The position numbers and the translations under genes are program-made. The notes beneath the pieces were generated by a model. The model searched no databases and was not told the origin of the DNA. It saw only the letters and a program-made list of their open reading frames with translations. From assembly GCA_030682575.1 (NCBI GenBank), contig JAUXNX010000007.1:1-41576 (forward strand): a DNA stretch of 41,576 nucleotides, written 5' to 3'. Shown here in pieces: positions 1-18,594 of this stretch (position 1 is its first letter; each line of letters starts with the position of its first letter). Origin of the DNA: Gammaproteobacteria bacterium. GTDB taxonomy: Bacteria > Pseudomonadota > Gammaproteobacteria > Pseudomonadales > Pseudohongiellaceae.

Positions 1-1143
1 GAGACGTTTACTCTTTCCACTGGATCGATCACCGGCACTGTGACCAATTCCGGCGCTGCCACTGGTACGGCGACGATCACGGATAACGATCTGGCACCAA
101 CGCTGAGCATCAACGATGTCACCGTGAACGAAGCAGCAGGGACGGCGACGTTTACTGTCACTCGAAGTGGGGCAACTGGCGCTACTGCGTCTGTTGACTA
201 CGCGACGAGCAATGGCACCGCGACCGCTGGCAGCGACTACACGGCCACCAGTGGCACGCTGAACTTTGCAGCGGGGGAGACGACCAAGACGTTTACCGTG
301 GCGATCACCAACGACAACGTGTTTGAGGGCAGCGAGACGTTCAATGTCACGCTGAGCAACGCCACAGGTGCGACCATCAGTGACAGCACGGGCGTGGGTA
401 CCATCAAGGATGATGGCTCTGGCAGTGGCGGCAGCAACAATGACACACCGACAGTCTCTGTCAGCAACCCGACCATTACCGAGGGCGCGAGCGCTGTGTT
501 CACAGTGAGCATGAACAGGGCCTCCACGTCAGCCGTGAGCTTCACACCGAGCCTGAGCAGCGGCACTGCGACAGTAGGTACCGACACGGCGGCATCCAGC
601 ACGCTGGAAGTCTCCACCGACGGCGGTGACACCTGGAGCACAGTTTCTGGGGCCATCACAATTGCAGCCGGACAGACTTCGGTCCAACTGCGCATCGCCA
701 CGATCGACGATACACTCAGCGAAAGCAGTGAGACGTTCACGCTGTCTACCGGTGCGATCACCGGCACAGTCACCAACTCTGGCGCTGCCATCGGCACTGC
801 CACGATCACGGATAACGATCTGGCACCAACGCTGAGCATCAACGATGTCACCGTGAACGAGGCGGCAGGTACGGCACAGTTCACGGTGACGCGAAGTGGG
901 GCGACCGGCGCCACTGCCTCCGTGAACTACGCGACGAGCAACGGCACGGCGACAGCAGGCAGTGACTACCTCTCTACGAGCGGCACGCTGAATTTTGCAA
1001 TTGGTGAAACTTCGAAAACCTTTACCGTGGTAATCAACAACGATGCCATTGCTGAGGGCAGTGAAAATTTCAATGTCACTCTGAGCAATGCCACAGGTGC
1101 GACCATCAGTGACGGCACCGGTATTGGCACCATCACCGATGAT
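1..1143 (+). repeat. 729-bp in-frame tandem repeat inside the Calx-beta gene
   Basis: Bases 1-414 align in register with 730-1143, an offset of exactly 729 bp or 243 codons. The match is strongest around 81-150 versus 810-879, where long stretches are identical or nearly so. One unit holds two different beta-sandwich modules: an SINDVTVNEAAGT Calx-beta and a second one with SNPTITEGASAVFTVS. Since base 1 already lies inside a unit, more copies probably precede the window. Confidence 0.8.
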
Positions 1144-4521: not shown

Positions 4522-4555
4522 CCCTGCATCGGAAATCCAAGTGGGGCTTGATCGA

Positions 4556-5938
4556 ATGGCAGAACATCAGTCTTCCCAGGCGCGTCCGTTGCTGGCACTG
4601 CTTGACCTCGCCCGCCGCGCACGGCAGGCCGAGGAGGCAGCAGTGCTGCGTTTTCTTGCCGTCAACGACACTCACGAGTTGGTCACATATCGGCAGTCCG
4701 GGCTCTGGCTGAGCGGGCAGGGAGTCTGCGCGCTCTCTGGAGTGGTCAAGGTTGAGGCGAATGCCCCCTACGCACTGTGGCTGACCAGGATTTGTCAGTT
4801 CCTGTCCGAATCTTTCAAGAATCCTCATGCACTTACAGCCAGTGACCTGTCGGGCGAGCTTGCCGGGCAGTGGAGTGAGTGGCTGCCGGAGCATGGGCTG
4901 TGGCTGCCAATAGTTGCAGACGGTGATGTGATGGATGGCGGCTTGCTGTTGGCCCGTGATCTGCCCTGGACCGAACGTGACATCGCCTTGCTGGGCGAGT
5001 GGATGGGTATCTGGGAGCACGCCTGGCGAGCCTTGCACAGCGCCCGCGCCGTCAAGGGTAACTGGTTCACGCGACTGCTTGCAATTGGCCAAAGGCCCGG
5101 GGATCGCAAGTCCAGAATCAGAAAAGTCTGGTGGCGACGCCCCGTCACTCTGTTGTTGAGTGTCCTGCTCATTATCTCCTTCATCCCGGTACGTCTCGCC
5201 ATTCTGGCGCCGGCAGAATTGGTTCCCTCTGATCCCGCTGTGATCCGCTCTCCATTGGAAGGGGTACTTGGCACCTTTCATGTAGAACCCAATCAGAATG
5301 TGCAGGAAGGCGATCTGCTGTTCGAGTTTGACGAGGCCATCATCCGCAGCAGGCTCGATGTGGCGCGCTTTGCTCTCGCCACTGCAGAGTCCGAATATCG
5401 TCAGGTTGCACAACAGGCGCTCTCTGATGAGCGTTCCAAGGCGCTGCTGTCGTCACTCACTGGCTCTATTGAGGAGCGCAGGGCAGAGGCGCTGTTTCAG
5501 GAAGAGCAGCTGACACGTACGAAGGTTCTGGCTCCACGTAGCGGCATCGTGTTGTTTGACGATCCGAGTGAGTGGGTCGGGCGCCCGGTGAGGATCGGCG
5601 AGCGTATCATGCGCATTGCTGCCGCCGAAGACATCGAAGTAGAAGCGTGGGTGCCGATTGCGGATGCGATACCTCTGGCGATGGGGGCGCCTGTCTCTCT
5701 TTATCTGAATGCCAGTCCGCTTGACCCGGTACGCGGAACATTGCGCTATCTGGCACATGATGCGGTGGAGCGTCCCGATGGCACCTATGCCTATCGCCTG
5801 CGTGCCAGCATTGATGGCGAGATAGAGCACCGGGTCGGATTGAAAGGCACTGCACGTGCCAGCGGTGAGAGAGTGTCATTGATCTACTGGGTCATGCGTC
5901 GACCGCTCGCCAGTGTGCGGGCATTGCTGGCCATATGA
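4556..5938 (+). CDS. HlyD-family membrane-fusion protein with GAF-like N-terminal domain
   Basis: Predicted inner-membrane periplasmic adaptor of an export system. Numbered from the alternative GTG start at 4541, residues 20-165 form a soluble domain that reads like a GAF-type sensor, ending with the LPWTERDIALLGEW helix typical of GAF tails. One membrane segment lies at about 201-219 after a basic stretch. The lipoyl-like HlyD half-motif (VIRSPLEGVLGTFHVEP, then VQEGDLLFEFD), a helical hairpin at about 265-320 and the second half (VLAPRSGIVLFDDP) follow. The domain order is cytoplasmic sensor, membrane span, periplasmic adaptor. ATG 4556 was chosen, but GTG 4541 is equally open and neither has a strong ribosome-binding site. 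It begins 34 bp after the Calx-beta gene and its stop overlaps the M50 gene start (ATGA), so the two are probably translationally coupled. No ABC ATPase or TolC gene is visible. Confidence 0.8.
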   Translation: MAEHQSSQARPLLALLDLARRARQAEEAAVLRFLAVNDTHELVTYRQSGLWLSGQGVCALSGVVKVEANAPYALWLTRICQFLSESFKNPHALTASDLSGELAGQWSEWLPEHGLWLPIVADGDVMDGGLLLARDLPWTERDIALLGEWMGIWEHAWRALHSARAVKGNWFTRLLAIGQRPGDRKSRIRKVWWRRPVTLLLSVLLIISFIPVRLAILAPAELVPSDPAVIRSPLEGVLGTFHVEPNQNVQEGDLLFEFDEAIIRSRLDVARFALATAESEYRQVAQQALSDERSKALLSSLTGSIEERRAEALFQEEQLTRTKVLAPRSGIVLFDDPSEWVGRPVRIGERIMRIAAAEDIEVEAWVPIADAIPLAMGAPVSLYLNASPLDPVRGTLRYLAHDAVERPDGTYAYRLRASIDGEIEHRVGLKGTARASGERVSLIYWVMRRPLASVRALLAI

Positions 5939-8082
5939 ACGCTGCCCCCTTGTCAGGCTTGCGTGAAGAACTGGATCTGCTGGCTGGACCGGTTCTACCG
6001 GATGGTCAACCAAGCTGGACACTGCATGATCCCGAACGCAATATGTTCTTTCGAATAGACTGGCTGACCTTCGAGATTCTGCAACGCTGGTCTCTCGGCG
6101 ATCCGCAGGCGATAGCGCAGAACATCACCACTGCCACCACGTTGCGCCCTGACGAGGATGACGTGACTCATGTTGCGAGGTTTCTGGATGAAAATCAGCT
6201 GACCGTTTCCAGAGGGCCCAACAGCGCCAGGAAGTTGGCCGAGCGTCTCGCCATCATTCAGGGCACGCCACTGAAGTGGCTCCTGCATCACTATCTGTTC
6301 TTCCGCGTTCCGTTGTGGCGCCCGGATGCTTGGCTGCAACGCATGTTGCCGATAGTGGCACCATTGTATACGCGTGGGTTTTTCTTTCTGACGCTACTGG
6401 CATTGCTGATCGGATTGACTCAGGTAGTGCGTCACTCGGAAGTGTTTTTCACCTCGCTGGTGGATACCTTCACCTTTCAGGGGCTTGCGGCGTATGGCGT
6501 GACTCTGATTGTTGTGAAACTTCTGCACGAGTTGGGGCATGCCTTTACCGCAAAGCGATTTGGTTGTCGCATCCCGGCGATTGGCGTGGCATTCCTGGTC
6601 ATGTTTCCGATGGCCTATACCGATACCAATGAGACATGGCGCCTTACCAATCGATGGCAACGTCTCCAAGTGTCTGCTGCGGGTATCGCCACGGAATTGA
6701 TGATCGCCGCATGGTCCACACTGGCCTGGGGACTGTTGCCAGATGGGGAGTTGCGCGGTCTGGCCTTCATGCTGGCCACCACCAGTTGGATAGCCACTGT
6801 GTTGATCAACGCCAGTCCCTTTCTGCGTTTTGATGGCTACTTCATTCTTTCCGATCTGCTCGATATGCCAAACCTGCATGGCCGCAGTTTTGCACTGGCG
6901 CGCTGGCAATTGCGCGAATCGCTGTTTGCGCTGGGAGAGTCGAAGCCAGAACACTTTTCTGCACGCAAACAGTTCTGGCTGATTGTGTTCGCCTGGATCA
7001 CATGGATCTATCGGCTTGTAGTATTTCTGGGTATCGCGCTGTTGGTGTACCACCTCTTTGTGAAGGTCATAGGCATTTTCCTCTTCGCGGTAGAGATCTG
7101 GTGGTTCATCGCACGTCCCATCCTGCAGGAACTGCAGGCATGGCGGGCGAGATTGCCGAAGATCAGTGCGAACCCATACAGCAGACGACGCAGTCTCTTC
7201 AGTGTACTGTTGTTCACCGGCTTGGTGGCTCTGTTGTTCGTGCCCTGGCCCGGCCGAGTGGTGGTCAGCGGGTTACTGCGCCCTCTTGATATCTGGACAG
7301 TCTTCGCTCCGGCAGGTGCACAAGTGGAAACCCTTTTGCATGACGAGGGGGATCTGGTGTCGGCGGGTACGACAATTATCCGTATGCATTCTCCGGAGCT
7401 GACGGCTCGGTATCGTGCCGCACAGGCAAAAGTCGAGAGTGCGCGCTGGCAGGCTGCGGCAGCAGGGCTGGATGTGAGAGCCAGGGGGCAATTGCAGGTG
7501 GCTCAGCAAGAGTACGCCACCGCCAATGCGGAGCTGTTGATGATCGAGGAGCAACTGCTGCCTTTCACGTCGGTAGCACCGTTCACTGGCACACTGCGTG
7601 ATATCGATCCTGACCTGGAGATCGGACAGTGGCTGGAGGAGCGCGAGAAAATTGCGGTGCTGGTGGGTGACGGACCTCTGCTGGTGGAGACATACCTGGA
7701 TGAGGAAGCCGTCAAACGCGTTGCCATCGGAGACAGCGCAATCTTTATCGCAGATGGTCTGGAAGGAGGTGTACTGTCGCTGACTGTGCGCAACATCGAT
7801 GCGGATGCTACGCGAGTGTTGCCGAATGGCATTCTTTCCGCGCAGGCCGGTGGTCACATCCTGACGCGGGCCCGCCAGGGAGAACATGTTCCTGGCGGGT
7901 CATTCTTTCGCGTCGTGCTGCAGGCAGAGAAGAGTACAAGCGTTCTTCACGAACCCTATGCCGGACAATTTCCCAGTCAGGCCTGGCGTGGCCAGGTGAT
8001 TATCAGGGCGGATGCCCAAGCACCCGCCACACGCTACTTGCGTAACTTCATGGCGGTGCTGGTGCGAGAGTCCGGATTATAG
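5935..8082 (+). CDS. M50 (site-2 protease family) metallopeptidase fused to HlyD-like domain
   Basis: A 715-residue multipass protein. Residues 25-95 resemble a PqqD-like peptide-binding fold (WTLHDPERNMFFRIDWLTFE, then a helical FLDENQLT end). The membrane region starts near 147 and carries the zinc-protease motif HELGH at 198-202 inside a hydrophobic segment, with the second motif NASPFLRFDGYF ending in Asp300 as the likely third zinc ligand. Further spans continue to about 440. The C-terminal half is a HlyD/lipoyl-type adaptor (VFAPAGAQVETLLHDEGDLV, a coiled helical hairpin, then a SVAPFTGTLRDID half-motif). This matches the putative peptide zinc metalloprotease group, found next to large exported proteins or peptide-export genes. 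The start is fixed by the 4-bp overlap with the upstream gene. The inferred role is inner-membrane processing or delivery of an exported substrate, most simply the adjacent Calx-beta protein. Confidence 0.82.
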   Translation: MNAAPLSGLREELDLLAGPVLPDGQPSWTLHDPERNMFFRIDWLTFEILQRWSLGDPQAIAQNITTATTLRPDEDDVTHVARFLDENQLTVSRGPNSARKLAERLAIIQGTPLKWLLHHYLFFRVPLWRPDAWLQRMLPIVAPLYTRGFFFLTLLALLIGLTQVVRHSEVFFTSLVDTFTFQGLAAYGVTLIVVKLLHELGHAFTAKRFGCRIPAIGVAFLVMFPMAYTDTNETWRLTNRWQRLQVSAAGIATELMIAAWSTLAWGLLPDGELRGLAFMLATTSWIATVLINASPFLRFDGYFILSDLLDMPNLHGRSFALARWQLRESLFALGESKPEHFSARKQFWLIVFAWITWIYRLVVFLGIALLVYHLFVKVIGIFLFAVEIWWFIARPILQELQAWRARLPKISANPYSRRRSLFSVLLFTGLVALLFVPWPGRVVVSGLLRPLDIWTVFAPAGAQVETLLHDEGDLVSAGTTIIRMHSPELTARYRAAQAKVESARWQAAAAGLDVRARGQLQVAQQEYATANAELLMIEEQLLPFTSVAPFTGTLRDIDPDLEIGQWLEEREKIAVLVGDGPLLVETYLDEEAVKRVAIGDSAIFIADGLEGGVLSLTVRNIDADATRVLPNGILSAQAGGHILTRARQGEHVPGGSFFRVVLQAEKSTSVLHEPYAGQFPSQAWRGQVIIRADAQAPATRYLRNFMAVLVRESGL

Positions 8083-8098
8083 CTTCATGAAAAGCTGG

Positions 8099-11000
8099 TC
8101 AACGCGATCGGAAGCGCATATCCAGTGTGTAAGGATGTGCGGCGTGCGGATCACCCAGATCAAGATCCATCACTCCCTGTGTATGGCCGTGTTGCCAGAA
8201 GCGCGCTACGCGGCGCGCTTCCGCTTCGTTGGCGTTCACCGGGAAGGTGTCATAGTTTCTGCCGCCGGGATGGGACACGTGGTAAGTACATCCGCCCAGT
8301 GAACGATTGTGGTGAGTGTCCACGATGTCGATCACCAGCGGTGAATGCACGCCGATGGTCGGGTGCAATGCCGAATACGGCGCCCATGCCTTGTAGCGGA
8401 TGCCTGCGACAAATTCTCCTTCAGTGCCCGTGCTTCGCATCGGGATCTTGCGGCCGTTACAGGTGATGATGAAGCGGTTGCCGGTCATGTTCTGCGTGCG
8501 TACCTGCAGGCGCTCAACCGAAGAATCCACGTAGCGCGCTGTGCCCTGGCCCGTCGATTCCTCGCCGAGCACATGCCAGGGTTCAATGGCACGCTGCAGA
8601 TCGAGCTGAATGCCAGCAGTGTGAATCGTGCCATAGTGTGGAAAGCGGAATTCCTGGAACGGTGCGAACCATTCCAGTGAAAACGGATAGCCTGCCTTGT
8701 TCAGATCGTCCACCACCCAGCCCAGATCCTCCCACACGAAATACGGCAGCATGAAGCGGTCGTGCAGTTCCGTGCCCCAGTTGACCAATGGTTTGTCGTA
8801 GGGCTTCTGCCAGAAATGGGCGACCAGCGTGCGCAGCAACAAGACCTGCAACGCGCTCATCTGCCAATGTGGTGGCATCTCGAAATTGCGAAACTCGACA
8901 ATGCCCAGGCGTCCACTTGCGCTGTCCGGCGAATAGAGCTTGTCGATGCAGAATTCCGCACGGTGCGTGTTGCCCGTGAGATCGACGAGGAAGTTGCGCA
9001 GTATGCGATCCACGAGCCAGTACTGACCGGTGGTATGGTTTTCCAGTTGCTGCAACGCGATTTCGAGTTCGTAGAGATTGTCGTCCCGTGCTTCATCGAC
9101 CCGCGGTGCCTGACTGGTTGGACCTATGAACTGACCTGAGAACAGATAGGAGAGGCTTGGATGATTCTGCCAGTAGCGCAGCAGACTGCCGAGCAGATCA
9201 GGGCGGCGCAGGAAGGGACTGTCTTCCGGTTTGGCGGCGCCCAGTGTCACATGATTGCCTCCACCGGTACCCATGTGACGTCCATCGAGCATGAACTTGT
9301 CGGTGCCGAGACGATTCTGCCGTGCCTGCTCGTAGAGTGTGTGTACAAGGCTGGTCAATTCCGGCCAGCTGGAAGTGGGTTGCACATTCACTTCGATGAC
9401 GCCGGGGTCAGGTGTGATCATCAACTTCTGCAGGCGATGATCCTTGGGTGGTTCGTAGCCTTCGATCACGAGGGGGCAAGTCAACTCTTCAGCGATCGCT
9501 TCGATGGCGGCAAGCAGTGCGACGTAGCGCTCGAGATCTGTCTGCGGCGGCAGAAACAGATACAGTCTGCCGTCACGCACTTCCGCACACATTGCTGTGT
9601 GAAAGAGGCGGCCGTCGCTCGGTTCTGCGGCGTCCAGTTCATCGTCTATCTCATCGGGAAGCAGAGGATAGGGCAGCTCTTCGCGTGGTGCAAACGGATC
9701 GCGGTCGGACTCCTGCTCGTTCTTGTCTGGCGCCTGCCAGGGCAGACTGTCCAGCGGCAGACGAAAACCTACTGGCGAATCGCCCGGCAGCAGCACGAGT
9801 TTTTCCTTGCGAAAATACCACTTGCAACTCAGCCACTTGATTTCGCCCTCGATTTCTGTGGAGGACAGCGGCAGTACGTAGCCGGTCTCCTTGTCGAGGC
9901 CTTGTGCAAACACGCGCTTGATGCGCGCACTCTCCAGGGGATCGACTACCTTGTTGTCCCACAGGGACACATTGGCGGGCAGCTCGGCTTCGCGCTTCAA
10001 ATAGAAACTCTTGTCTTCGAATGCGGGCAGCACGTAACGCGGACTGATACGCAGGCGCCGTGCCAGTGTGCCGATGAAGTTTGCAGCCATGCGCATGTTC
10101 ACTGGACCGGGTACGCGATCATCGGCAAGCAATTGTGGATTGTGCCAAAGCGGTTTGCTGTCGGTGCGCCAGAACAGACCCAGTGCCCAGCGCGGTAGTG
10201 GCTCGCCCGGATACCACTTGCCCTGACCGATATGCACGATACCCTGTGGACCGTAATGCTTTTTCAACGCCAGCAACAGTTCTCCTGCAAGCTTGCGCTT
10301 TTCCTTGCCGAGCGCAGCGGTGTTCCACTGCGGACTCTCCATATCGTCGATGGAGATGAAGGTGGGCTCGCCGCCCACGGTCAGACGTACATCGTTGACC
10401 AGCAGTTCCTCGTCAACTCGCAGACCAAGTGCATCAATCTTCTTCCATTCGTCGCCGGTATAGGGTTTGGTTACGCGCGGATCTTCGTGGATGCGAGTGA
10501 CCTTGTTCTCGTGGAAAAATTGCACCTCGCTGACGCCTGTGCTGCCCGTTATTGGTGCAGCGCTGACAGGATCAGGTGTGCAGGCAAGTGGAATGTGTCC
10601 TTCGGCAGCAAAAAGTCCGGAAGTGGGATCCAGTCCAACCCACCCTGCACCAGGAATGAACACTTCAGTCCATGCGTGCAAATCAGTGAAGTCTTCAGTG
10701 GGACCGGAAGGTCCGTCGATAGAGCGAACATCTGCAGTCAACTGCACCAGATAGCCAGAAGCGAAGCGTGCCGCGAGTCCCATATGGCGCAAAGTTTGCA
10801 CCAGCAACCATGCACTGTCGCGACAGGAGCCGAGCTTTCGTGTGAGCGTTTCCTCGCAAGTCTGTACGCCAGGCTCCATGCGGATCACATAATTCACAGC
10901 GTTTTGGGTGCGGCTGTTTTCCGCGACCAGAAAGCTGACGATAGGTTGCTTGCTGATGTTGACGCCTTTGAGCCATTTCGTCATCTGCGGCCCTGTCTCC

Positions 11001-11362
11001 TTGATTTCAAGATAAGGTGCCAGGTCTTTGGCCAGTTGCGGATCGTATTTGAATGGGAAATGTTCGGCGCTTTCTTCGACAAAGAAGTCGAAGGGATTGA
11101 TCACCGTCATATCGGCAATCAATTCCACTGTAATAGATAATTCTTTCGCCTTTTCTGGGAATACAAGACGTGCGAGATGATTCGAAAAAGGATCCTGCTG
11201 CCAATTGATGAAGTGTGAGGTTGGCGAAATCTTGAGCGAGTAGGCATTGATCGGAGTGCGGCAGTGTGGAGCCGGTCGCAAGCGGACAACGTGTGGATTT
11301 ATTTGCACCAATCGGTCGAAGCGATACGTCGTCTGGTGGTGTATTGCTACTTTAATGGTCAT
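8099..11362 (-). CDS. Transglutaminase-like protein with C-terminal DUF2126 amidoligase domain
   Basis: A 1,087-residue protein from the ATG at 11362; the frame is open further upstream, but MTIKVAIHHQTTYRF is the typical beginning of the family. Residues 1-100 are the bacterial transglutaminase N-terminal beta domain. The papain-like core shows a Cys180 (LGSCRDS), His229 (DLHAWTE), Asp245 (GLDPTSG) triad. From about 330 to the end is the DUF2126 region, classed in the literature as a putative GCS2/glutamine-synthetase-like COOH-NH2 ligase (amidoligase). The protein could thus both cleave or transfer and form amide bonds. The gene is convergent with the M50 gene (16-bp gap) and divergent from the ATP-grasp gene, with start codons only 18 bp apart. 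It belongs to the Anbu-associated set that follows. Substrate unknown; probably cytoplasmic, as no signal peptide is seen. Confidence 0.9.
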   Translation of the reverse strand: MTIKVAIHHQTTYRFDRLVQINPHVVRLRPAPHCRTPINAYSLKISPTSHFINWQQDPFSNHLARLVFPEKAKELSITVELIADMTVINPFDFFVEESAEHFPFKYDPQLAKDLAPYLEIKETGPQMTKWLKGVNISKQPIVSFLVAENSRTQNAVNYVIRMEPGVQTCEETLTRKLGSCRDSAWLLVQTLRHMGLAARFASGYLVQLTADVRSIDGPSGPTEDFTDLHAWTEVFIPGAGWVGLDPTSGLFAAEGHIPLACTPDPVSAAPITGSTGVSEVQFFHENKVTRIHEDPRVTKPYTGDEWKKIDALGLRVDEELLVNDVRLTVGGEPTFISIDDMESPQWNTAALGKEKRKLAGELLLALKKHYGPQGIVHIGQGKWYPGEPLPRWALGLFWRTDSKPLWHNPQLLADDRVPGPVNMRMAANFIGTLARRLRISPRYVLPAFEDKSFYLKREAELPANVSLWDNKVVDPLESARIKRVFAQGLDKETGYVLPLSSTEIEGEIKWLSCKWYFRKEKLVLLPGDSPVGFRLPLDSLPWQAPDKNEQESDRDPFAPREELPYPLLPDEIDDELDAAEPSDGRLFHTAMCAEVRDGRLYLFLPPQTDLERYVALLAAIEAIAEELTCPLVIEGYEPPKDHRLQKLMITPDPGVIEVNVQPTSSWPELTSLVHTLYEQARQNRLGTDKFMLDGRHMGTGGGNHVTLGAAKPEDSPFLRRPDLLGSLLRYWQNHPSLSYLFSGQFIGPTSQAPRVDEARDDNLYELEIALQQLENHTTGQYWLVDRILRNFLVDLTGNTHRAEFCIDKLYSPDSASGRLGIVEFRNFEMPPHWQMSALQVLLLRTLVAHFWQKPYDKPLVNWGTELHDRFMLPYFVWEDLGWVVDDLNKAGYPFSLEWFAPFQEFRFPHYGTIHTAGIQLDLQRAIEPWHVLGEESTGQGTARYVDSSVERLQVRTQNMTGNRFIITCNGRKIPMRSTGTEGEFVAGIRYKAWAPYSALHPTIGVHSPLVIDIVDTHHNRSLGGCTYHVSHPGGRNYDTFPVNANEAEARRVARFWQHGHTQGVMDLDLGDPHAAHPYTLDMRFRSR

Positions 11363-11380
11363 AAGGTAATGTGCCCGAAT

Positions 11381-12829
11381 ATGCGTATTGACTGGAAATC
11401 CTATAACCCCGGGGCGTTTTATGACGAGCTGATCAGTTCGCCAGGGCACGCTCGCAAGCCAGGCCGGATTCTGGCCAAGTATCTCGGCTCACTGAAAAGT
11501 GAAGATCTTCAACAACGCAAGGCAGCCGCTGAACTTGCCATCAAGGCGATGGGAATTTCATTTACCGTCTACAGTGAAGCTGGCAATATCGATCGAGAGT
11601 GGCCGTTCGACATTATTCCCCGAATCATTACAGAAACACAATGGCGCCAGACAAGTAAAGGTCTGGAGCAGCGTCTGCGTGCACTCAACTGTTTCATTCA
11701 CGATATTTACAATGATCAGAAGATTCTCAAGGACAAGGTCGTACCTGCAGAGCTGATCGTGAAATCTGCCAATTTCCGCAAGGAATGTGTTGGCATGAAG
11801 CCTCGCTTTGATGTCTGGGCACACATTTGTGGTACTGACCTGATTCGCGATACAGACGGTCGATTCTATGTGCTGGAAGATAACCTTCGAGTTCCATCCG
11901 GTGTGTCCTACATGCTGGAAAATCGTCAGGTTACCAAGCGCGTTTTTCCGGAGTTGTTCGAGAATTACGACATTCAGCCTATCACCGAATATACGGCACA
12001 ACTTTTCGATACGCTGGCAGCAATTTCACCGCGTCCTCTCGATTATCCTGAAGTCGTTGTATTGACACCCGGTATTTACAACTCCGCTTATTTTGAACAC
12101 TCCTTTCTTGCTCAGCAGATGGGGGCGGAACTGGTGGAAGGCGGTGATCTCGTTGTTGAAGATGATTGTGTGTACATGCGTACGATCAATGGTCTGTCGC
12201 GCGTGGATGTCATCTACCGGCGTATTGATGATCTCTTTCTTGATCCGGATGTATTCCATCCTGATTCCGTGCTGGGTGTACGCGGATTGATGCGTGCGTG
12301 GCTCAAGGGTAACGTGGCACTGGCGAATGCACCTGGTGCAGGCGTTGCGGACGACAAGGTTATCTATACATACGTGCCAGCGATGATCAAATACTATCTT
12401 GGTGAAGAAGCGATTCTGGAGAACGTGCCCAGTTATCTCTGCGTCGATGAGAAGCAGTGCAAGTACGTGTTGCAGAATCTCGACAAGCTTGTCGTCAAAC
12501 CTGCAAATGAGTCAGGTGGTTACGGCATGTTGATGGGACCGCAGGCCAGCAAGAAGGAGCGTGATGAGTTTGCCTTGAAGATCAAGGCGAATCCGCGCAA
12601 CTACATGGCGCAACCATTGATTGGCTTGTCGACAGCTCCGGTGCTTGGTGAGCGTGGCGCAGAGCCGCGTCATATTGATCTGCGTCCATTCATTCTGCAG
12701 GGCAAGAGCACCTATGTTACTCCGGGTGGCCTCACGCGGGTGGCCATGGTGAAAGGTTCCTATGTGGTCAACTCCTCTCAGGGTGGTGGCAGCAAGGATA
12801 CCTGGATAGTTTCCGAAGGAGCGCGCTGA
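11381..12829 (+). CDS. Circularly permuted ATP-grasp protein (DUF404/DUF407, COG2308 type)
   Basis: A 482-residue protein starting MRIDWKSYNPGAFYDE, which is how the family usually begins. ATG 11369 in the same frame is an alternative, and the frame stays open to 11264. Family features visible are the early RELxxHDIYNDQKILKD-like stretch (here LRALNCFIHDIYNDQKIL), GRFYVLEDNLRVPSGVSYML, DVIYRRIDDLFLDP, VVKPANESGGYGMLMGP (glycine-rich nucleotide-binding loop) and IDLRPFILQG. Related enzymes form amide bonds with ATP through an acyl-phosphate intermediate, so this is the second predicted ligase of the cluster. The alpha-E gene follows after 3 bp, indicating an operon. Family assignment is very safe; the amino-acid or peptide substrate cannot be read from the sequence. 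Confidence 0.93.
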   Translation: MRIDWKSYNPGAFYDELISSPGHARKPGRILAKYLGSLKSEDLQQRKAAAELAIKAMGISFTVYSEAGNIDREWPFDIIPRIITETQWRQTSKGLEQRLRALNCFIHDIYNDQKILKDKVVPAELIVKSANFRKECVGMKPRFDVWAHICGTDLIRDTDGRFYVLEDNLRVPSGVSYMLENRQVTKRVFPELFENYDIQPITEYTAQLFDTLAAISPRPLDYPEVVVLTPGIYNSAYFEHSFLAQQMGAELVEGGDLVVEDDCVYMRTINGLSRVDVIYRRIDDLFLDPDVFHPDSVLGVRGLMRAWLKGNVALANAPGAGVADDKVIYTYVPAMIKYYLGEEAILENVPSYLCVDEKQCKYVLQNLDKLVVKPANESGGYGMLMGPQASKKERDEFALKIKANPRNYMAQPLIGLSTAPVLGERGAEPRHIDLRPFILQGKSTYVTPGGLTRVAMVKGSYVVNSSQGGGSKDTWIVSEGAR

Positions 12830-12832
12830 CCG

Positions 12833-13801
12833 ATGTTGTCCCGTGTTGCAGAGAGAGTGTACTGGCTCGGTCGCTATCTGGAACGGGCAGAGAACTCCGC
12901 TCGTCTTTTGACCGTTTACTCAACCCTGCTGCTCGATCTGCCTCGCGGGGCGAGGATCGGTTGGCATACGCTGGTGGAAATCACCGGCAGTCGTGCTGAG
13001 TTTGATGAACGATATCAGGTGACTGATGAGCGATCAGTGAATCGATTCTTGGTCGCCGACCCAAAGAATCACTCCTCGATATTGAATTCGCTGTCAATGG
13101 CAAGAGAGAACGCCCGCACCACCCGTGAAATCATTCCCGCAGAGGCGTGGGAGCAGATCAACAACCTCTATCTGTTTGCAAGAGAAAATGTCGGCAAGGC
13201 GGTGGCGCGTGGTCCACGCAATCAATTCCTGCAAGAGATCATTTCCTATTGTCAGCAGATTACTGGTCTGTTTGCAGGTGCCATGAGTCACAATAGTGGC
13301 TACAATTTCATTCGCATTGCTCGCAGCCTGGAGCGCGCTGATATGACGACGCGCATCGTTGATGTGGGCTCCGTTGCGTTGTTGCCGAATCTTGCGGGCG
13401 CAAGTGCAGCTGAGCAAGTACCGGAGCCCTATACGAACATGATCTGGATGAGTGTATTGCGCTCCCTCAGTGCCTACCAGATGTATCGTCAGCATGTGCT
13501 GGATCGTGTCAATGGCGAGGATGTAGTGACGTTCCTTCTGCAGGACGCGCAGTTTCCACGCTCCGTTGTCCACAGTCTTCACAAGCTGGAATCATGTCTG
13601 CAGTTTCTCCCCAACAATGAGGCTACCTTGCAGCAGCTCTCAATAACACGGGCATTGGCCTGCGATGCAACGATCCCTCAGCTTCTGCAGAAAGGTTTGC
13701 TCGAATATATTGACGAACTGCAGATCGAGATAGCACGTATTCATGCGCGCATTACCGACACCTGGTTTCTGCCTGCTGTCAGTGGTCAGCAACAATCCTG
13801 A
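12833..13801 (+). CDS. Alpha-E domain protein (DUF403, COG2307)
   Basis: A 322-residue all-helical protein opening with MLSRVAERVYWLGRYLERAEN, the signature of the alpha-E family. Other family stretches are LSMARENARTTREIIPAEAWEQIN, FIRIARSLERADMTTRI and DAQFPRSVVHSL. It starts 3 bp after the ATP-grasp stop, with a purine-rich GGAGCGCGCTGA just upstream, so it is co-translated with it. In many bacteria it is inseparable from the circularly permuted ATP-grasp partner and is thought to assist it; its own activity is unknown. No signal peptide or membrane segment is evident. The length is normal for the family. Confidence 0.93.
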   Translation: MLSRVAERVYWLGRYLERAENSARLLTVYSTLLLDLPRGARIGWHTLVEITGSRAEFDERYQVTDERSVNRFLVADPKNHSSILNSLSMARENARTTREIIPAEAWEQINNLYLFARENVGKAVARGPRNQFLQEIISYCQQITGLFAGAMSHNSGYNFIRIARSLERADMTTRIVDVGSVALLPNLAGASAAEQVPEPYTNMIWMSVLRSLSAYQMYRQHVLDRVNGEDVVTFLLQDAQFPRSVVHSLHKLESCLQFLPNNEATLQQLSITRALACDATIPQLLQKGLLEYIDELQIEIARIHARITDTWFLPAVSGQQQS

Positions 13802-13853
13802 TGAATGTCCGGGCATGGTATGTGCCATGGAATGAACGGAAGGATCTGCATCC

Positions 13854-14951
13854 ATGAAGAATTTCCTGTGTACCTGCGGCCAGACCTTGTATTTCGAGAA
13901 TACGCGCTGCACTGCCTGTCAACGGCGTATTGGATACGACCCCGAGCTGTGTACTCTGCTTGCTCTCGATCCGGTCTATGACGAACATGGCACACTTGGG
14001 GAATGCTGGCGCGCCGCCGATGGGGGACAGTTGTACCAACTTTGTCTGAATGACATTGATTATGCTGTCTGCAATTGGCTCGTCTCTTCGCCCAACATGT
14101 CATATTGTCTGGCCTGCAGCCTGAATCATATCGTGCCTGGTGTAGAGTCCAGGCATAGACAATTGCAGAAACGCCAGTGGTGGGCAAGCATGGAGCAGGC
14201 CAAACGACGCCTTCTTTACACATTGATGGCGCTCGGCCTGCCGGTGCACAGCAAGGCGGAAGATCCGGTGTCGGGTCTCGCATTTGCATTTCTGGAAGAT
14301 CAAAGCTCCAATCCTCTCGTGCGTGAGAAGCATGTCCTTACCGGACACGCCGAGGGGCTCATTACCGTCAATCTTGCCGAGGCCGACAACGCGCTACGCG
14401 AACACGCAAGGCAACGACTCGGAGAGCCTTATCGAACACTGCTGGGTCACTTCCGCCATGAAAGTGGACACTACTATTTCGACAGACTTATTTGGCGTCA
14501 TGAGGACTTGCAGACCTTTCGCCAGTTGTTCGGTGATGAGCGCAGAGACTACGATCAGGCTATAGCTGCCTACTACGGCTGTCAGGACAATGAAGAGCGG
14601 CGGCCCGACATGATCAGCGCCTACGCCCAGGCACATCCGTTGGAGGATTGGGCAGAGTGCTGGGCGCATTATCTGCACATGATCGATACGTTGGAGACAG
14701 CGGCGGAATACGGAGTGGTGGTACAGACGGAAGCCTATAGCAACTGGTCGCAGAACATCGAGGCCTGCTTTGCGCATTGGTCCCAGGTGAGTGTCATGCT
14801 GAATTCGTTGAATCGTAGTATGGGGCTTGAGGATGCGTATCCGTTCGTGCTCTCGGCCCAGACTCTCAATAAGCTTCGTTTCGTTCATCGGATGATTTGT
14901 CCCAACTCGACGCCCATGCAAACGGGGGCATCTGTCGGAACGCATCCTTGA
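13854..14951 (+). CDS. Putative zinc-binding metallopeptidase (DUF2248 type, COG4307-like)
   Basis: A 365-residue protein. The N terminus is a zinc ribbon with Cys6, Cys8, Cys19 and Cys22 (CTCG and CTAC). A gluzincin-like HESGH motif lies at residues 202-206 (LGHFRHESGHYYFDRLI), and a later EDWAECWAHYLH helix probably supplies the third ligand. The ATG at 13854 is preceded by GGAAGGATCTGCATCC. It lies 52 bp after the alpha-E gene on the same strand and is likely part of that operon. Its 3' end overlaps the end of the convergent Anbu gene by 86 bp. Within the cluster it is the metal-dependent peptidase beside a threonine peptidase and two ligases; what it cuts is not known. Confidence 0.85.
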   Translation: MKNFLCTCGQTLYFENTRCTACQRRIGYDPELCTLLALDPVYDEHGTLGECWRAADGGQLYQLCLNDIDYAVCNWLVSSPNMSYCLACSLNHIVPGVESRHRQLQKRQWWASMEQAKRRLLYTLMALGLPVHSKAEDPVSGLAFAFLEDQSSNPLVREKHVLTGHAEGLITVNLAEADNALREHARQRLGEPYRTLLGHFRHESGHYYFDRLIWRHEDLQTFRQLFGDERRDYDQAIAAYYGCQDNEERRPDMISAYAQAHPLEDWAECWAHYLHMIDTLETAAEYGVVVQTEAYSNWSQNIEACFAHWSQVSVMLNSLNRSMGLEDAYPFVLSAQTLNKLRFVHRMICPNSTPMQTGASVGTHP

Positions 14952-15624
14952 GGCGCTGATCCCAACTGCGTTTGAGCTCTCGCAGGAATTCGCTGTCTTC
15001 CGAAAAACGCAAAGGATCATTCAGCACGAGTGTATCGGTGCGGTAAACCAGTGTTTCTATGGGGGGGCCAACGCTCAGGTTACTGCGCATCGTGGAGTCC
15101 ATGGAAACCAGCGCGCACAGGGCACAGGTGTCCAGATTCAGATCCGGGGTCAGGATGCGGTCAAGAATGGGTTTACCATACTTGCTCTCGCCGATCTGCA
15201 AATAGGGCGTGTCTTTTGAACTGGTGATGTGATTTCCCTGCGGATACACCAACATGATGCGGTGCTTGCTGTTGGCAATCTGTCCACCAATGATGAAGCT
15301 CGCTTCGAAGGAATTGCCTGTCTTGGCGTGTTTTTCCTGCTGCGCAAGGCTCACGTCTCCCAGATAATCGGCGGCTTCGCTGACGGTTTCCACAGTCAAC
15401 AGACTGGTGTTTGCTCGTTCCTTGATGTCGCGCTTTACCTGGGCAATGGTGGCCTGAGTCGTGGCGAGATTGCCTGCGGTGAGGATGACAAACTGGCGTT
15501 GACCATCCACGCCAAAACGATACATCTTGCCGTAGGTGCTGACTTGGTCTATGCCCGCATTGGTGCGGGAATCAGAGCAAAAGACCATGCCTGCATCTAC
15601 TGCGATTGCCACACAATACGTCAT
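14866..15624 (-). CDS. anbu: Anbu, bacterial proteasome-beta-like Ntn peptidase
   Basis: A 252-residue protein that begins Met-Thr-Tyr-Cys, so Met removal exposes Thr1 as the N-terminal nucleophile. Counting from that Thr, Asp17 (FCSDSRT) and Lys32 (TYGKMYRF) fall where proteasome-fold catalytic residues are expected. Other family features are SDSRTNAGIDQVSTYGKM at the start, SFIIGGQI, LVYPQGNHI with YLQIGESKYGKPILDR, and DTCALCALVSMDSTMRSNLSVGPP. Anbu is the ancestral-beta-subunit relative of HslV and the 20S proteasome, reported to form ring or helical oligomers; it needs no propeptide, as here. It is encoded on the strand opposite to the ATP-grasp/alpha-E operon. Co-occurrence with transglutaminase, ATP-grasp and alpha-E genes is a known property of Anbu, which makes the assignment strong. 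Confidence 0.92.
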   Translation of the reverse strand: MTYCVAIAVDAGMVFCSDSRTNAGIDQVSTYGKMYRFGVDGQRQFVILTAGNLATTQATIAQVKRDIKERANTSLLTVETVSEAADYLGDVSLAQQEKHAKTGNSFEASFIIGGQIANSKHRIMLVYPQGNHITSSKDTPYLQIGESKYGKPILDRILTPDLNLDTCALCALVSMDSTMRSNLSVGPPIETLVYRTDTLVLNDPLRFSEDSEFLRELKRSWDQRLKDAFRQMPPFAWASSWDKSSDERNEAY

Positions 15625-15905
15625 GATTCTTGAACCGGGTTACTGGAGGATGTCGTCACTGAATTGCAACAACGGTTCGAACAGTACACTACTTGGCTCT
15701 CAAGGTGAATATGTCTTTTCATTCGTTTTATGATTCTGCTGGATGACTGTTGTGCACACCATACAAGTGGGTTTGGCAGGAAGTGTGCCACTGCAGATAA
15801 TGACGGATGTCCGGTCGTATGGCGGGATTCTTGGGGTTTGGAGGGGGGTAGAGAGTCTGCACCTCCTGCGTGACAGGAAGTTCGGCAGACTCTCGAAAGT
15901 CTGAC
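15625..15905. other. Intergenic region upstream of Anbu
   Basis: 281 bp without a convincing gene. It must hold the Anbu promoter on the minus strand, but no clear -35/-10 pair was found. A nested inverted repeat lies next to the upstream acidic gene (listed separately). A 69-codon minus-strand frame here has no family resemblance or ribosome-binding site. Confidence 0.6.
15851..15894 (-). terminator. Nested hairpin after the acidic small gene
   Basis: GAGAGTCTGC (15851-15860) is perfectly complementary to GCAGACTCTC (15885-15894), and inside it TCCTG (15864-15868) pairs with CAGGA (15874-15878). It lies 12 bp downstream of the stop of the minus-strand acidic gene. There is no T-run on either side, so if it ends transcription it is not a classic intrinsic terminator; it could instead be an RNA-stability element or part of the Anbu leader. 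Confidence 0.4.
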
Positions 15906-16181
15906 TCAATGATCGTCTAGCGCGTCGTCAAAGTCGTCATAATCATCGACATCATAGGAGTCTTTGAAATTGACATCGTTGTTGTCATCGTCAAATTGCA
16001 GATCGCCGTACATGCGCTTCCAATCAAGGCGCTCTTCGGTTCTGCGACGCAGTTCAGTCAAACGACGCTTGTGCAGACGCTTGTCATTGGGTTCCTCTAG
16101 TTCTGTCTCTGGTATGAATGCACCCGAATCAAAAAAGTCTTTTGATGCGTCAGCGATATCTTCCCATTGATGACTTTTCAT
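15906..16181 (-). CDS. Small acidic protein of unknown function
   Basis: A 91-residue protein with two contrasting parts. Residues about 33-56 are a strongly basic helix (DKRLHKRRLTELRRRTEERL), and residues 62-91 are an Asp-rich tail with repeated DD, DVDDYDDFDD. It has no signal peptide, cysteine or membrane segment. The ATG at 16181 is preceded by an AAGAGAT ribosome-binding site at good spacing, supporting it as a real gene. The basic-helix-plus-acidic-tail design recalls small gammaproteobacterial proteins such as the PA3496 group, but that is only a visual resemblance. It is upstream of Anbu on the same strand with a 281-bp gap and a hairpin between, so it is probably not in the same transcript. 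Confidence 0.6.
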   Translation of the reverse strand: MKSHQWEDIADASKDFFDSGAFIPETELEEPNDKRLHKRRLTELRRRTEERLDWKRMYGDLQFDDDNNDVNFKDSYDVDDYDDFDDALDDH

Positions 16182-16506
16182 GTATTTGATCTCTTGTCTG
16201 ATCTCGTTGAGTCTTTACTGCTTTTTTCACATGCCTTGCGTCTAATGAACTATTCGGCGTTTCACCATTTGTCAAGGGTTTCCAGCCGGGCATTCACGAA
16301 GCGAATTATGGGTATAAAATCATAGAATGCAATAGGGCGAAAAATTATTTTTCAGGGCAATATGTGGTCTGAAAATACAGTGTTTCAACGGCATTCACGA
16401 CGTGAAAAATAACAGTGCATTGTGACCCTTCGATGACAGAAAGTGGTGCGTTTCTATGGTGTCCTCATTACATGCTGGCGATGTCGAGACTAGGAGTGGA
16501 AGGAGA
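16182..16506. promoter_or_regulatory. AT-rich divergent promoter region with repeated palindromic half-sites
   Basis: The region between the acidic gene (minus) and the zinc-ribbon gene (plus). GGCATTCACGA occurs twice as a direct repeat, at 16289-16299 and 16390-16400. The second copy lies in a perfect palindrome TTCACG-A-CGTGAA (16394-16406), and the first is a degenerate version (TTCACGAAGCGAA). A TATAAA box lies at 16313-16318 between them. The layout suggests an operator pair around a plus-strand promoter, but no regulator is known. Confidence 0.4.
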
Positions 16507-16857
16507 ATGATGAGGTCTGGCAGGGAGTGTCTTCAATGTGGGATGCAGCTTCCTGTAGCAGCTGACCAATGCCTGAAGTGCGATGCTGTGTTGCATTTGC
16601 AGACTGATGGTTCGCTACTGCAAGTTGATATTGCTCACAATCACGAGACTATCAAAGTTGCACTGGAAAAACTTGCCGGGGTGCTCGCAGAAGCGCGATC
16701 CGGACATACGCGTGCGGTGCGTTTAGTGGTTGGCCGCGGGCTTATTCGGGAAGAAGTGCTGCTGCAATTGAGCTGGTTGCAGCGCTCGGGAGAGATACTC
16801 TCCTTCAACTACGAGAGTGGTAACACCGGGGCAATACTGATCACGATTCGTCGATAA
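16507..16857 (+). CDS. Zinc-ribbon protein with Smr-like C-terminal domain
   Basis: About 116 residues. Two CxxC pairs near the start (CLQCG and CLKCD) form a zinc ribbon. The rest has the layout of a small Smr (MutS2 C-terminal type) domain: a strand ending VDIAHNHETIKVALEKL in place of the usual DLHGLT start, a long helix, the strand-turn AVRLVVGRG (Smr has hIVHGKG), a helix REEVLLQLSWL, and a final GAILITI strand. Typical Smr catalytic or structural motifs are degraded (HNHE instead of LHGL), so nuclease activity is doubtful. ATG 16507 or 16510 is preferred because TAGGAG and AAGGAG lie just upstream; a 17-codon longer form from 16456 is possible. The gene converges on the acyl-CoA ligase with a 6-bp gap. 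Confidence 0.6.
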   Translation: MMRSGRECLQCGMQLPVAADQCLKCDAVLHLQTDGSLLQVDIAHNHETIKVALEKLAGVLAEARSGHTRAVRLVVGRGLIREEVLLQLSWLQRSGEILSFNYESGNTGAILITIRR

Positions 16858-16863
16858 TGTAAC

Positions 16864-18594
16864 TCAGTAAATTGACATGGCCTTGATCAGAGCATCGCGA
16901 ATCTGCTTCTTGGCTATCTTGCCACTGGCTATCCGTTCCAGCTGTTCGCTCTGCAGCCAGATTCGACTGGGTATCTTGAAGCGGGCAAGATGTGTTTGCA
17001 GGAAAGCCTGAAGTTCCGCCTCGGTGATGGTGGAATTGGGTTTCACCATTACTGTGGCTGCCACGATCTCCCCGAGTCTTTCGTCGGGAAGTCCGAAGAC
17101 TGCCACCTCGCAGACTTCAGGATGTTTAGCCAAGGCATATTCCACTTCCGCACACCCGATATTCTCGCCGCCTCTGATTACAATATCTTTCGCCCGGTCT
17201 TTGATGATCAGGAAGCCATGCTCGTCCAGCAGACCGAGATCGCCGGTGTGAAACCAGCCATCCTTGAGAACCCTGGCGGTCTCTTCCGGTTTATTCCAAT
17301 AACCCATCATGATTGTAGGTCCTTTGATGCAGATTTCTCCGATCTGGCCGTTATCGAGTACCTCGCCATCTTCATTCACGATGCGAATGCTGGTCAGGGG
17401 GGCTATGGGGCGGCCGGTACTGTCGGGTTTGGACAAATAGAACTTGCCGGTAATGATTGCGCCAAGAGCGTTGGTTTCGGTGAGGCCATAACCCAGTCCG
17501 GGGATGGCGCGTTCGGGGAACTTCTTCTGCATCATCGCCAGATGTTCGGGCGGGCGTGATGCACCACCGCTCTGGACGTTGCGCAGGCTGCTCAGATCGG
17601 TGTGCGCAAACTGCGGCGAGTTCATGACCTCCCAGGTCATTGTAGGCACGCCGTGCAACACCGAGAGGCGTTCCTTCTCGATCAGCTCCAATGCCTGTTC
17701 TGCGTTCCACTTGTACATCATGACGAACTTGCGGTGGTAGATGAAACTGGCGAGAAACTGGGCATGACTGCCGGTGACGTGGAAGAGAGGAACATTGGCC
17801 AGTATGCCTGGCTGGTATTGAGGATTGTCCTCGCGTAACTCCGGGCGCAGGATTTCCGTGATCTCCTTGACGAACAACCAGCTGTAGAGGGCGCTGATGA
17901 TGGCGCGGTGGCTGGACAGCACACCTTTGGGGTGCCCGGTGGAGCCCGAGGTGTACATGATGGAGGCGGCGTCCTCAGGAAATATTTCCCGATCCTCCAT
18001 TCGTAGAGGTGGCAGGTCCGCGCCCTTGAGTATCAGGGTGCGAAAGTCTTGCCAGGGCGAGTTTGCTTCAGGCCCGATCGCGACGATTTGAAGGGAGATG
18101 CCATTCAGACAGGGTTGTAGCCGATCGATTCGCTCCTGATCCGCAAACAGCAATCTGGTGCCGCTGTCCTGCAGTCCGTAGAGCATCTCGCTGCCTTGCC
18201 ACCAGGAGTTCATTGGAACCACGATTGCACCAATCATGGTGATTGCCATGTAGGTGATGCACCACTGCGGATTATTGCGTGAACAGACAGCAATACGATC
18301 ACCCTTGGCGATGCCATATTCGTTGATCAGCGCCGTGGCAAGGTTGTTCGCCAGTCTGTAGGTCTCGCCATAACTGTACCGTTCATCCCCACATATGAGA
18401 AAGGGCAGGTCAGGGTTGTTGAGCGCGAGCCGATAGAGACCATGCAGGTTCTGCGGCACCTTGGTGAATACGGGGGTTTCAATATCATTGATGAGGGCCG
18501 AGCCAACGGCAAGTGGTGCGTCGGGAGCCTTGTGGCGGATGACGATATCCCTGAGCGTGTTCAGGTCGCTTGCAATCTCTTCGGCGCTTAGCAT
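16864..18594 (-). CDS. Acyl-CoA synthetase / AMP-dependent ligase (fatty-acid type)
   Basis: A 576-residue class-I adenylate-forming enzyme that would activate a carboxylic acid, most likely a medium or long fatty acid, to its CoA thioester through an acyl-AMP. Visible motifs in order are the P-loop-like SIMYTSGSTGHPKG, GYGLTETNA, GWFHTGDLGLLDEHGF, KDRAKDIVIRGGENIG, and the C-terminal SGKIAKKQIRD containing the catalytic lysine. All core motifs are intact and the length is typical. The chain-length preference cannot be read from the sequence. It is alone on its strand apart from the CopC-like gene 178 bp upstream. The start ATG at 18594 has no strong ribosome-binding site, but no better in-frame start is present. 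Confidence 0.9.
   Translation of the reverse strand: MLSAEEIASDLNTLRDIVIRHKAPDAPLAVGSALINDIETPVFTKVPQNLHGLYRLALNNPDLPFLICGDERYSYGETYRLANNLATALINEYGIAKGDRIAVCSRNNPQWCITYMAITMIGAIVVPMNSWWQGSEMLYGLQDSGTRLLFADQERIDRLQPCLNGISLQIVAIGPEANSPWQDFRTLILKGADLPPLRMEDREIFPEDAASIMYTSGSTGHPKGVLSSHRAIISALYSWLFVKEITEILRPELREDNPQYQPGILANVPLFHVTGSHAQFLASFIYHRKFVMMYKWNAEQALELIEKERLSVLHGVPTMTWEVMNSPQFAHTDLSSLRNVQSGGASRPPEHLAMMQKKFPERAIPGLGYGLTETNALGAIITGKFYLSKPDSTGRPIAPLTSIRIVNEDGEVLDNGQIGEICIKGPTIMMGYWNKPEETARVLKDGWFHTGDLGLLDEHGFLIIKDRAKDIVIRGGENIGCAEVEYALAKHPEVCEVAVFGLPDERLGEIVAATVMVKPNSTITEAELQAFLQTHLARFKIPSRIWLQSEQLERIASGKIAKKQIRDALIKAMSIY

Follow-up and report, generated by a model that had tools for sequence, protein, structure and literature searches.

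We analyzed a 41,576-nucleotide stretch of DNA from a gammaproteobacterium (hereafter, the window), which is the whole of contig 22 in a genome of 3.73 Mb. Five genes at positions 8099-15624 of the window, all uninterrupted reading frames, include one for Anbu, a proteasome beta-like protein. The locus belongs to a second lineage of Anbu loci, in which a zinc metallopeptidase takes the place that a short transglutaminase-fold (TG) protein has in the classical Anbu operon. The gene at 8099..11362 (reverse strand) encodes a TG domain fused to DUF2126, a predicted amidoligase (TG-DUF2126; 1087 amino acids from the ATG at 11362); its open reading frame (ORF), 8099-11449, matched the Pfam families Bact_transglu_N (90.5 bits), Transglut_core (51.9) and DUF2126 (1275). 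Three genes follow on the forward strand: a circularly permuted ATP-grasp ligase at 11381..12829 (start at 11369 or 11381; CP_ATPgrasp_2, 561 bits for the ORF from 11264), an alpha-E protein at 12833..13801 that begins 3 bp after it (Alpha-E, 292 bits), and, directly downstream after 52 bp, a zinc-ribbon and HExxH metallopeptidase of the Peptidase_Mx family at 13854..14951 (Mx; Zn_ribbon_DZR_6, 75 bits, and Peptidase_Mx, 318 bits). The Anbu gene, at 14866..15624 on the reverse strand, is convergent with Mx and overlaps it by 86 bp, with ATP-grasp and alpha-E within 2.1 kb. Anbu scored 28.9 bits against the Pfam Proteasome family and 190-244 bits against five distinct solved Anbu sequences (5loy, 5lox, 5nyw, 5nyj, 5nyf).

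The mechanical ORF starts of TG-DUF2126 and the ATP-grasp gene were too early. The start of TG-DUF2126 is most likely the ATG at 11362 and not the ORF start at 11449; the resulting length of 1087 amino acids is also that of its counterpart in a related locus, L199. The start codons of these two divergent genes are 6-18 bp apart (window 11360-11383), leaving little space for an intergenic promoter. A profile search of the whole genome gave one match each for ATP-grasp, alpha-E, DUF2126, Anbu, Peptidase_Mx and Bact_transglu_N, and the sole TG domain of the genome is the one fused to DUF2126.

The catalytic residues of the hydrolase-like proteins are present in the window and are conserved. A preliminary description, made from the sequence alone, had placed the five genes here with intact active sites; frames, Pfam matches and residues were all confirmed, and the residues were kept in nearly all relatives. 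(Short fragments were set aside from these counts, leaving 70 of 72 rows for Mx, 120 of 121 for TG and 162 of 165 for Anbu.) The TG triad, Cys180/His229/Asp245 numbered from the ATG at 11362 (C209/H258/D274 in the long ORF), was retained in 120/120, 119/120 and 119/120 relatives, respectively. For the Anbu residues Thr1/Asp17/Lys32 the counts were 161/162, 162/162 and 162/162. The Mx motif is H202-E203-S-G-H206; the H, E and H of HExxH, the acidic residues E264/D265/E268 and the zinc-ribbon cysteines C64/C73/C85/C88 were each kept in 70/70 relatives. By sequence criteria, namely its relation to solved Anbu and the residues Thr1/Asp17/Lys32(33), the window protein is classed as an Anbu, and Mx is classed as a Peptidase_Mx protein (PF15887) with a DZR_6 zinc ribbon and is a predicted metallopeptidase. 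Our literature search, of partial coverage, found no characterized member of Peptidase_Mx.

ATP-grasp and alpha-E form the core of the system. With sequence profiles, we searched 319 genomes from the phylum to which the window belongs (Pseudomonadota, judging by named relatives); the tests are Fisher tests, and they and the co-occurrence counts ignore kinship. Mx was present in 62 genomes, Anbu in 123, DUF2126 in 100, alpha-E in 181 and circularly permuted ATP-grasp in 184 (181 above the family cut-off). The Mx count had been 65 before we removed three genomes with partial or weak matches only (G174, G185, G233), and ten weak or partial Mx matches were also removed. Alpha-E occurred in 61/62 Mx genomes, 121/123 Anbu genomes and 100/100 DUF2126 genomes, compared to 181/319 overall, indicating that ATP-grasp and alpha-E are the core and that the other three are satellites rarely found without it. 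The two Anbu genomes without alpha-E, G094 (locus L095) and G248, hold an orphan Anbu, as they also had no match to ATP-grasp, DUF2126 or Bact_transglu_N.

Mx and DUF2126 co-occurred with Anbu beyond chance, in keeping with the preliminary proposal that the genes belong together. Anbu was found in 44 of the 62 Mx genomes (p = 1e-8), and DUF2126 in 64 of the 123 Anbu genomes (p = 6e-10; the other 59 had none). The Mx-Anbu association was absent within DUF2126-bearing genomes (33/49 vs. 31/51, p = 0.54) and persisted in genomes without DUF2126 (11/13 vs. 48/206, p = 1e-5). Physical linkage within 10 kb was infrequent: 4 of 68 Mx matches were near Anbu, 16 of 68 were near DUF2126, and 13 of 124 Anbu matches were near DUF2126. 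We therefore rejected the idea that Mx is mainly an Anbu partner, as Mx in the survey lies near DUF2126 more often than near Anbu. In one genome, G218 (L091, L177), Mx, ATP-grasp and alpha-E are far from Anbu on one chromosome, and DUF2126 matched only in three pieces.

The five genes do not make up a fixed system. We read the neighborhoods of 79 Anbu genes (one per genus, plus the second Anbu of one genome), the window, 38 Mx genes, and then 80 named loci; the last are the 80 top-ranked matches, out of at least 595, of an Anbu alignment led by the window, and clade II (below) is over-represented among them. There were three kinds of loci: the classical operon of ATP-grasp, alpha-E, short TG and Anbu; a DUF2126 cluster, in most cases with a short TG and a gene that fuses ATP-grasp to alpha-E, and at times with Mx; and clade II Anbu loci, where the partner is Mx, DUF2126, parts of both, or neither. 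Among the stretches read, all five genes occurred together only in the window and in L199 (Gammaproteobacteria bacterium UBA5078), whose Anbu is 93% identical. Loci L202, L203, L205, L206 and L215 have the window arrangement minus TG-DUF2126, and L201, whose contig ends inside ATP-grasp, resembles them. TG-DUF2126 lay within 8 kb in 2 of 33 Mx-Anbu loci (the window and L199; some contigs end sooner). Together with the linkage counts above, this speaks against the treatment of the five genes as one set in the preliminary description, and the two-ligase makeup that it assumed is not general.

The DUF2126 cluster shares TG-DUF2126 and Mx with the window, whereas the window has Anbu and has neither a fused ATP-grasp/alpha-E gene nor a short TG. 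One such cluster, L191 (genome G050), has Mx, separate alpha-E and ATP-grasp genes, and TG-DUF2126 in the window's order, along with a fused ATP-grasp/alpha-E gene and a short TG; no Anbu was detected in its genome. L191 is a possible intermediate toward the window arrangement. Two Anbu reading frames were found inside a single locus of 6-21 kb in L207, L214, L238, L243 and L275, and in L228 the Mx, alpha-E and ATP-grasp genes are each broken into two reading frames, by decay or sequencing error.

Anbu proteins of operon-type loci fall into two lineages. We built a tree from 126 loci, after removing from 160 those lacking both ATP-grasp and alpha-E within 8 kb (32) and two fragments (L253, L271). 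The tree split well (support 99, starred) into 53 rows, every one with a short TG (52 with TG, one with TG and DUF2126), and 73 rows that include the window, which we call clade II. The partners in clade II were Mx (30 loci), Mx and DUF2126 (2), DUF2126 (11), TG and DUF2126 (10), TG (7) or none (13). It is in clade II that Mx and Anbu form a dedicated pair, and the four solved Anbu that were placed (5loy, 5lox, 5nyw, 5nyj) lie outside this clade. The tree of standalone ATP-grasp proteins divided largely in the same way, with 56 rows (support 97, starred) separated from 59 rows that include every Mx-Anbu one (support 82); fused ATP-grasp/alpha-E proteins, of which there were 21 reading frames in other loci, formed a third group. 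The S1 pocket of the window Anbu (T20-Y30-T48-L52-T55) resembles Anbu-1 and not Anbu-2 in the subtypes of Fuchs 2017 (Anbu-1, T20-F30-T48-L52-S55; the other type, basic, I-A-R-R-T; PMC5666114; here and below, papers given by PMC number are cited from partial text), but position 30 divides by lineage: 80 of 89 clade II rows have Y or H there, and 49 of the 73 rows outside the clade (four of the 73 being PDB chains) have F.

Mx occupies the slot of the short TG at Anbu loci. The two were never found together within 8 kb in 127 operon-type Anbu loci. In the survey (64 loci), four had Mx only, 58 TG only and two neither, so that short TG was present in 0/4 Mx loci vs. 58/60 others; in the named set (63 loci), the numbers were 28, 12 and 23, or 0/28 vs. 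12/35. Directly 3' of alpha-E we found Mx in 24 of 33 Mx loci and short TG in 50 of 71 TG loci, without overlap. Mx and Anbu were convergent in all 33 loci, 31 of them with spacing between -104 and +72 bp. We also compared Bact_transglu_N matches in 50 genomes (29 Mx-type, 12 TG-type and 9 with neither gene at the Anbu locus; genome completeness was not given). Nineteen of the Mx-type genomes had no match, six had weak partial matches (two above the cut-off) and four had full ones (one being the fused gene of L199), compared to full matches in 6/9 genomes with neither gene and in 12/12 TG-type genomes, the latter by selection. Inside clade II, a purpose-written likelihood test of correlated evolution (Pagel-type) gave a likelihood ratio of 24.8 for Mx vs. 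any TG (p = 5e-5) and p = 0.03 for Mx vs. short TG.

Could Mx be a passenger that tracks kinship, with its exclusion of TG the result of one or a few ancient events? All four survey Mx-Anbu pairs are in the window's class, and the Mx loci of the named set, which is close to the window, are gammaproteobacterial or, for L204 and L257, assigned only to Proteobacteria. The Mx tree, which unites 32 Anbu-linked Mx and one ATP-grasp-linked Mx in a single group (33 rows; support 85, not starred), is compatible with a single origin, and there were just two supported independent pairs. However, the tail-to-tail adjacency has been kept in 31/33 loci even though the Mx proteins are only 39-59% identical to that of the window, at least three changes of the Mx label are forced on well-supported branches of the Anbu tree, and the likelihood test above argues for linked changes. 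Eight Mx-Anbu loci also have their ATP-grasp block on the opposite side of Anbu, but these are close in the trees and perhaps reflect one or two rearrangements. We consider a passenger role for Mx quite unlikely.

Sites for sigma-54 are common before the ATP-grasp genes of Anbu loci without Mx and were not found in those with Mx. Using a consensus of our own, we scored each frame from 300 bp upstream to 100 bp within it. In non-Mx Anbu loci, 29/88 ATP-grasp genes had a -24/-12 site at the correct 4-base spacer; the same 88 gave 0, 0, 1 and 4 at spacers of 2, 3, 5 and 6, and 2/88 on the reverse strand. By locus type, sites were found in 17/57 (TG), 8/11 (DUF2126), 3/13 (neither) and 1/7 (TG and DUF2126). 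At a stricter threshold, TG-type loci had 10/57 compared to 0/884 control frames, and near-perfect promoters preceded 19/123 ATP-grasp genes compared to 15/2755 control frames, an approximately 28-fold excess (e.g., L097, L099, L107, L115). Such a site was found in 0/25 ATP-grasp genes of Mx-Anbu loci, window included (1/25 scored at the wrong spacer of 3); among Mx loci without Anbu, which are outside these counts, 1/4 had one. Sigma-54/NtrC control of the window was rejected, as no strong site precedes its ATP-grasp gene or TG-DUF2126. Judging from these scans, the Mx-Anbu branch appears to have left the sigma-54/NtrC regulon.

The sites in non-Mx loci agree with published observations. In Burkholderia cenocepacia, expression of a related four-gene set, I35_5080-83 (DUF404/407, DUF403, TG-like and large TG-like), falls 6-9 fold in an ntrC mutant (PMC5491218), COG3484 (Anbu) is in predicted sigma-54 regulons (PMC12316311), and Anbu is induced under nitrogen limitation, as cited in PMC5666114. 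These data, together with the sites above, are what would be expected if Anbu and its partner peptidases were a non-specific degradation set for turnover during nitrogen starvation and the ligase, as a member of the same regulon, served metabolism separately. We find this unlikely, because none of the Mx-Anbu ATP-grasp genes carries a site and because the presence of alpha-E in 121/123 Anbu genomes is tighter than a shared regulon requires.

Structural models relate the ATP-grasp protein to ligases of small molecules. We modeled a natural ATP-grasp/alpha-E fusion (from L212) using an alignment of 91 rows, nine of them fusions. The model (predicted local distance difference test score, pLDDT, 90.6; predicted template modeling score 0.89) can be read as a defined packing of ATP-grasp with alpha-E. 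Its Foldseek matches were 3n6x (E = 4e-33), glutathione synthetases (best E = 4e-12), the E-64 ligase Cp1B, and glutathionylspermidine synthetase/amidase (GspSA; 2io7, E = 5e-7). No clear alpha-E fold match was present among the 50 rows listed, for which aligned ranges were not given, and sequence searches found no solved relative of alpha-E or Mx. By way of this fused relative, and given the 536 bits of the window protein to 3n6x, the window ATP-grasp is assigned a glutathione synthetase-type three-domain fold. Cp1B couples an acid to an amino acid (PMC12568646), and the ATP-grasp of Yersinia bercovieri (YbATP-grasp) released orthophosphate from ATP (PMC6376114). The AlphaFold2 model of Mx had a pLDDT of 90.3. 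Its best Foldseek match, a zincin toxin chain (E = 0.05), was too weak for functional evidence. DUF2248 was predicted to have a zincin-like fold in a 2013 survey (PMC3650047); its accession, PF10005, is today that of the zinc-ribbon part.

These structural relationships bear on the possibility, proposed by Iyer 2009 and restated in PMC5666114 and PMC6376114, that the cluster tags proteins. In that proposal, proteins would receive a peptide or amino acid from the two ligases, and Anbu and the other peptidases would remove the tag or degrade the protein, much like ubiquitin and deubiquitinases or Pup and the proteasome. The presence of two predicted amide-forming enzymes together with a proteasome homolog fits this. 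The second ligase, however, is rare at Mx-Anbu loci, as described above, and DUF2126 is absent from 59/123 Anbu genomes. A Pfam scan found no AAA+ domain in the ten window proteins of 40-18594, and the ATP-grasp fold is nearest to ligases that act on small molecules, which favors small-amide synthesis over protein tagging. Looking for a tag gene among ORFs of at least 60 amino acids in Mx-type loci, we found none conserved beyond Anbu, Mx, alpha-E and ATP-grasp (the next best was in 8/33 loci, which were near kin). We think that protein tagging is unlikely.

Based on the gene content, trees and models, we believe, with about as much confidence as doubt, that the cluster is a clade II Anbu system with a core of ATP-grasp, alpha-E and Anbu, with Mx in the TG slot, and with an amide ligase opposed by hydrolases. 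The proposed reaction is cytosolic: with alpha-E holding it as a rigid partner, the ATP-grasp enzyme would use ATP for amide-bond formation, with a small peptide or acid as the substrate, by analogy with its structural relatives glutathione synthetase and glutathionylspermidine synthetase. Anbu and Mx (elsewhere, the TG-fold protein) would hydrolyze the product of the ligase or trim its peptide substrate, which would make the system a synthetase/amidase pair comparable to GspSA. The third-gene slot, filled by a TG-fold protein in the classical operon, is here taken by Mx, in line behind ATP-grasp and alpha-E and converging on Anbu. TG-DUF2126 would be an optional second ligase, added in the window's genome and one near relative. 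Gene content, lineage, the exchange in the slot, the conserved residues and the sigma-54-type sites of many non-Mx loci are observations; we infer the substrate class, the direction of flux and the hydrolytic role of the slot.

We know of no zinc peptidase that acts as a cross-linker. That Mx can stand in the place of the TG-fold protein therefore suggests that the slot hydrolyzes. We propose, with a little more doubt than confidence, that the 'transglutaminase' slot is a hydrolase slot filled by two unrelated folds, one papain-like and one a zinc metallopeptidase; that an amide ligase is set against two or three hydrolases, with no protein cross-linker; and that the Mx lineage is distinct, without recognizable sigma-54 control and with an Anbu that is not among the solved structures.

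Several observations weigh against the interpretation that an amide ligase is opposed by hydrolases with Mx in the TG slot. The independent-pairs test had only two pairs on well-supported branches, too few for significance. Mx and short TG coexist in 10 of 38 Mx neighborhoods, all of DUF2126 type and without Anbu in the stretch (L166, L168, L169, L170, L172, L184, L186, L187, L188, L191), and the window itself holds Mx alongside the fused TG, indicating that Mx is no strict equivalent of TG. In 26 of the 38 Mx neighborhoods, no system gene was seen in the stretch read. Thirteen clade II loci have neither Mx nor TG, and four Anbu genomes that have no Mx (G230, G031, G094, G248) lack TG as well; loss of TG thus needs no Mx. 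The trees are not fully congruent, as L084 and L085 combine a clade II Anbu with an ATP-grasp of the classical group. The modeled L212 fusion belongs to an ATP-grasp group other than the window's, and the Mx model had no Foldseek match in the PDB at E ≤ 0.001. In the portions of PMC5666114 and PMC6376114 available, none of YbAnbu, HyAnbu and PaAnbu cleaved a standard substrate, and a complex of operon proteins was not found. Finally, proteasome inhibitors bind Anbu, which was taken as favoring protein degradation over peptide synthesis (PMC5666114).

The window is related to, and differs from, several described systems. Like the classical Anbu operon of Pseudomonas aeruginosa and Y. bercovieri, it carries ATP-grasp, alpha-E and Anbu genes next to one another, and their products belong to the same families and share the catalytic residues. 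In the classical operon, however, a short TG lies between alpha-E and a co-directional Anbu, whereas the window has Mx in the slot and a convergent Anbu on the opposite strand, a different Anbu clade, an added TG-DUF2126 and no sigma-54 site that we found. Like GspSA, it pairs a glutathione synthetase-type ATP-grasp ligase with amide hydrolase activity, here predicted, but in separate genes, with alpha-E as an additional partner and with N-terminal nucleophile and zinc hydrolases. Anbu shares with HslV and the 20S proteasome beta subunit the N-terminal nucleophile fold and catalytic residues of the Thr1-Asp17-Lys33 type, but the cluster has no AAA+ partner, and published Anbu rings are open and non-closed (PMC5666114, PMC6376114).

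The general scheme has been published before. Iyer 2009 reportedly already covered the DUF2126-type ligase. PMC5666114 and PMC6376114 credit the four-gene operon and a peptide-synthesis or tagging proposal to Valas & Bourne 2008 and Iyer 2009, and the 'undescribed biochemical system' of the preliminary description cannot stand as such. What looks new is the second Anbu lineage with exchanged partners, a variant of the published system. Our literature search, of partial coverage, found no paper tying this zinc peptidase to Anbu; Iyer 2009 lay outside that coverage and may mention it. Anbu was described as without known function in the available text of a 2021 family paper (PMC8665760). This proteasome relative is present in 123/319 sampled genomes, and the slot exchange gives a concrete handle on it. 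The exchange leads us to predict hydrolase activity for the TG-like partner and singles out Mx for study alongside Anbu. It also identifies a lineage of Anbu that has no solved structure and distinguishes the core genes (ATP-grasp and alpha-E) from the optional ones (DUF2126, TG and Mx).

The neighboring genes at window positions 40-8082 encode a Calx-beta repeat protein, an HlyD-type adaptor, and an M50 intramembrane protease fused to an HlyD domain. The M50 part scored 160 bits against a daptide-biosynthesis protease model, under the model's cut-off of 300. This cluster looks like an export or adhesin system that is unrelated to Anbu.

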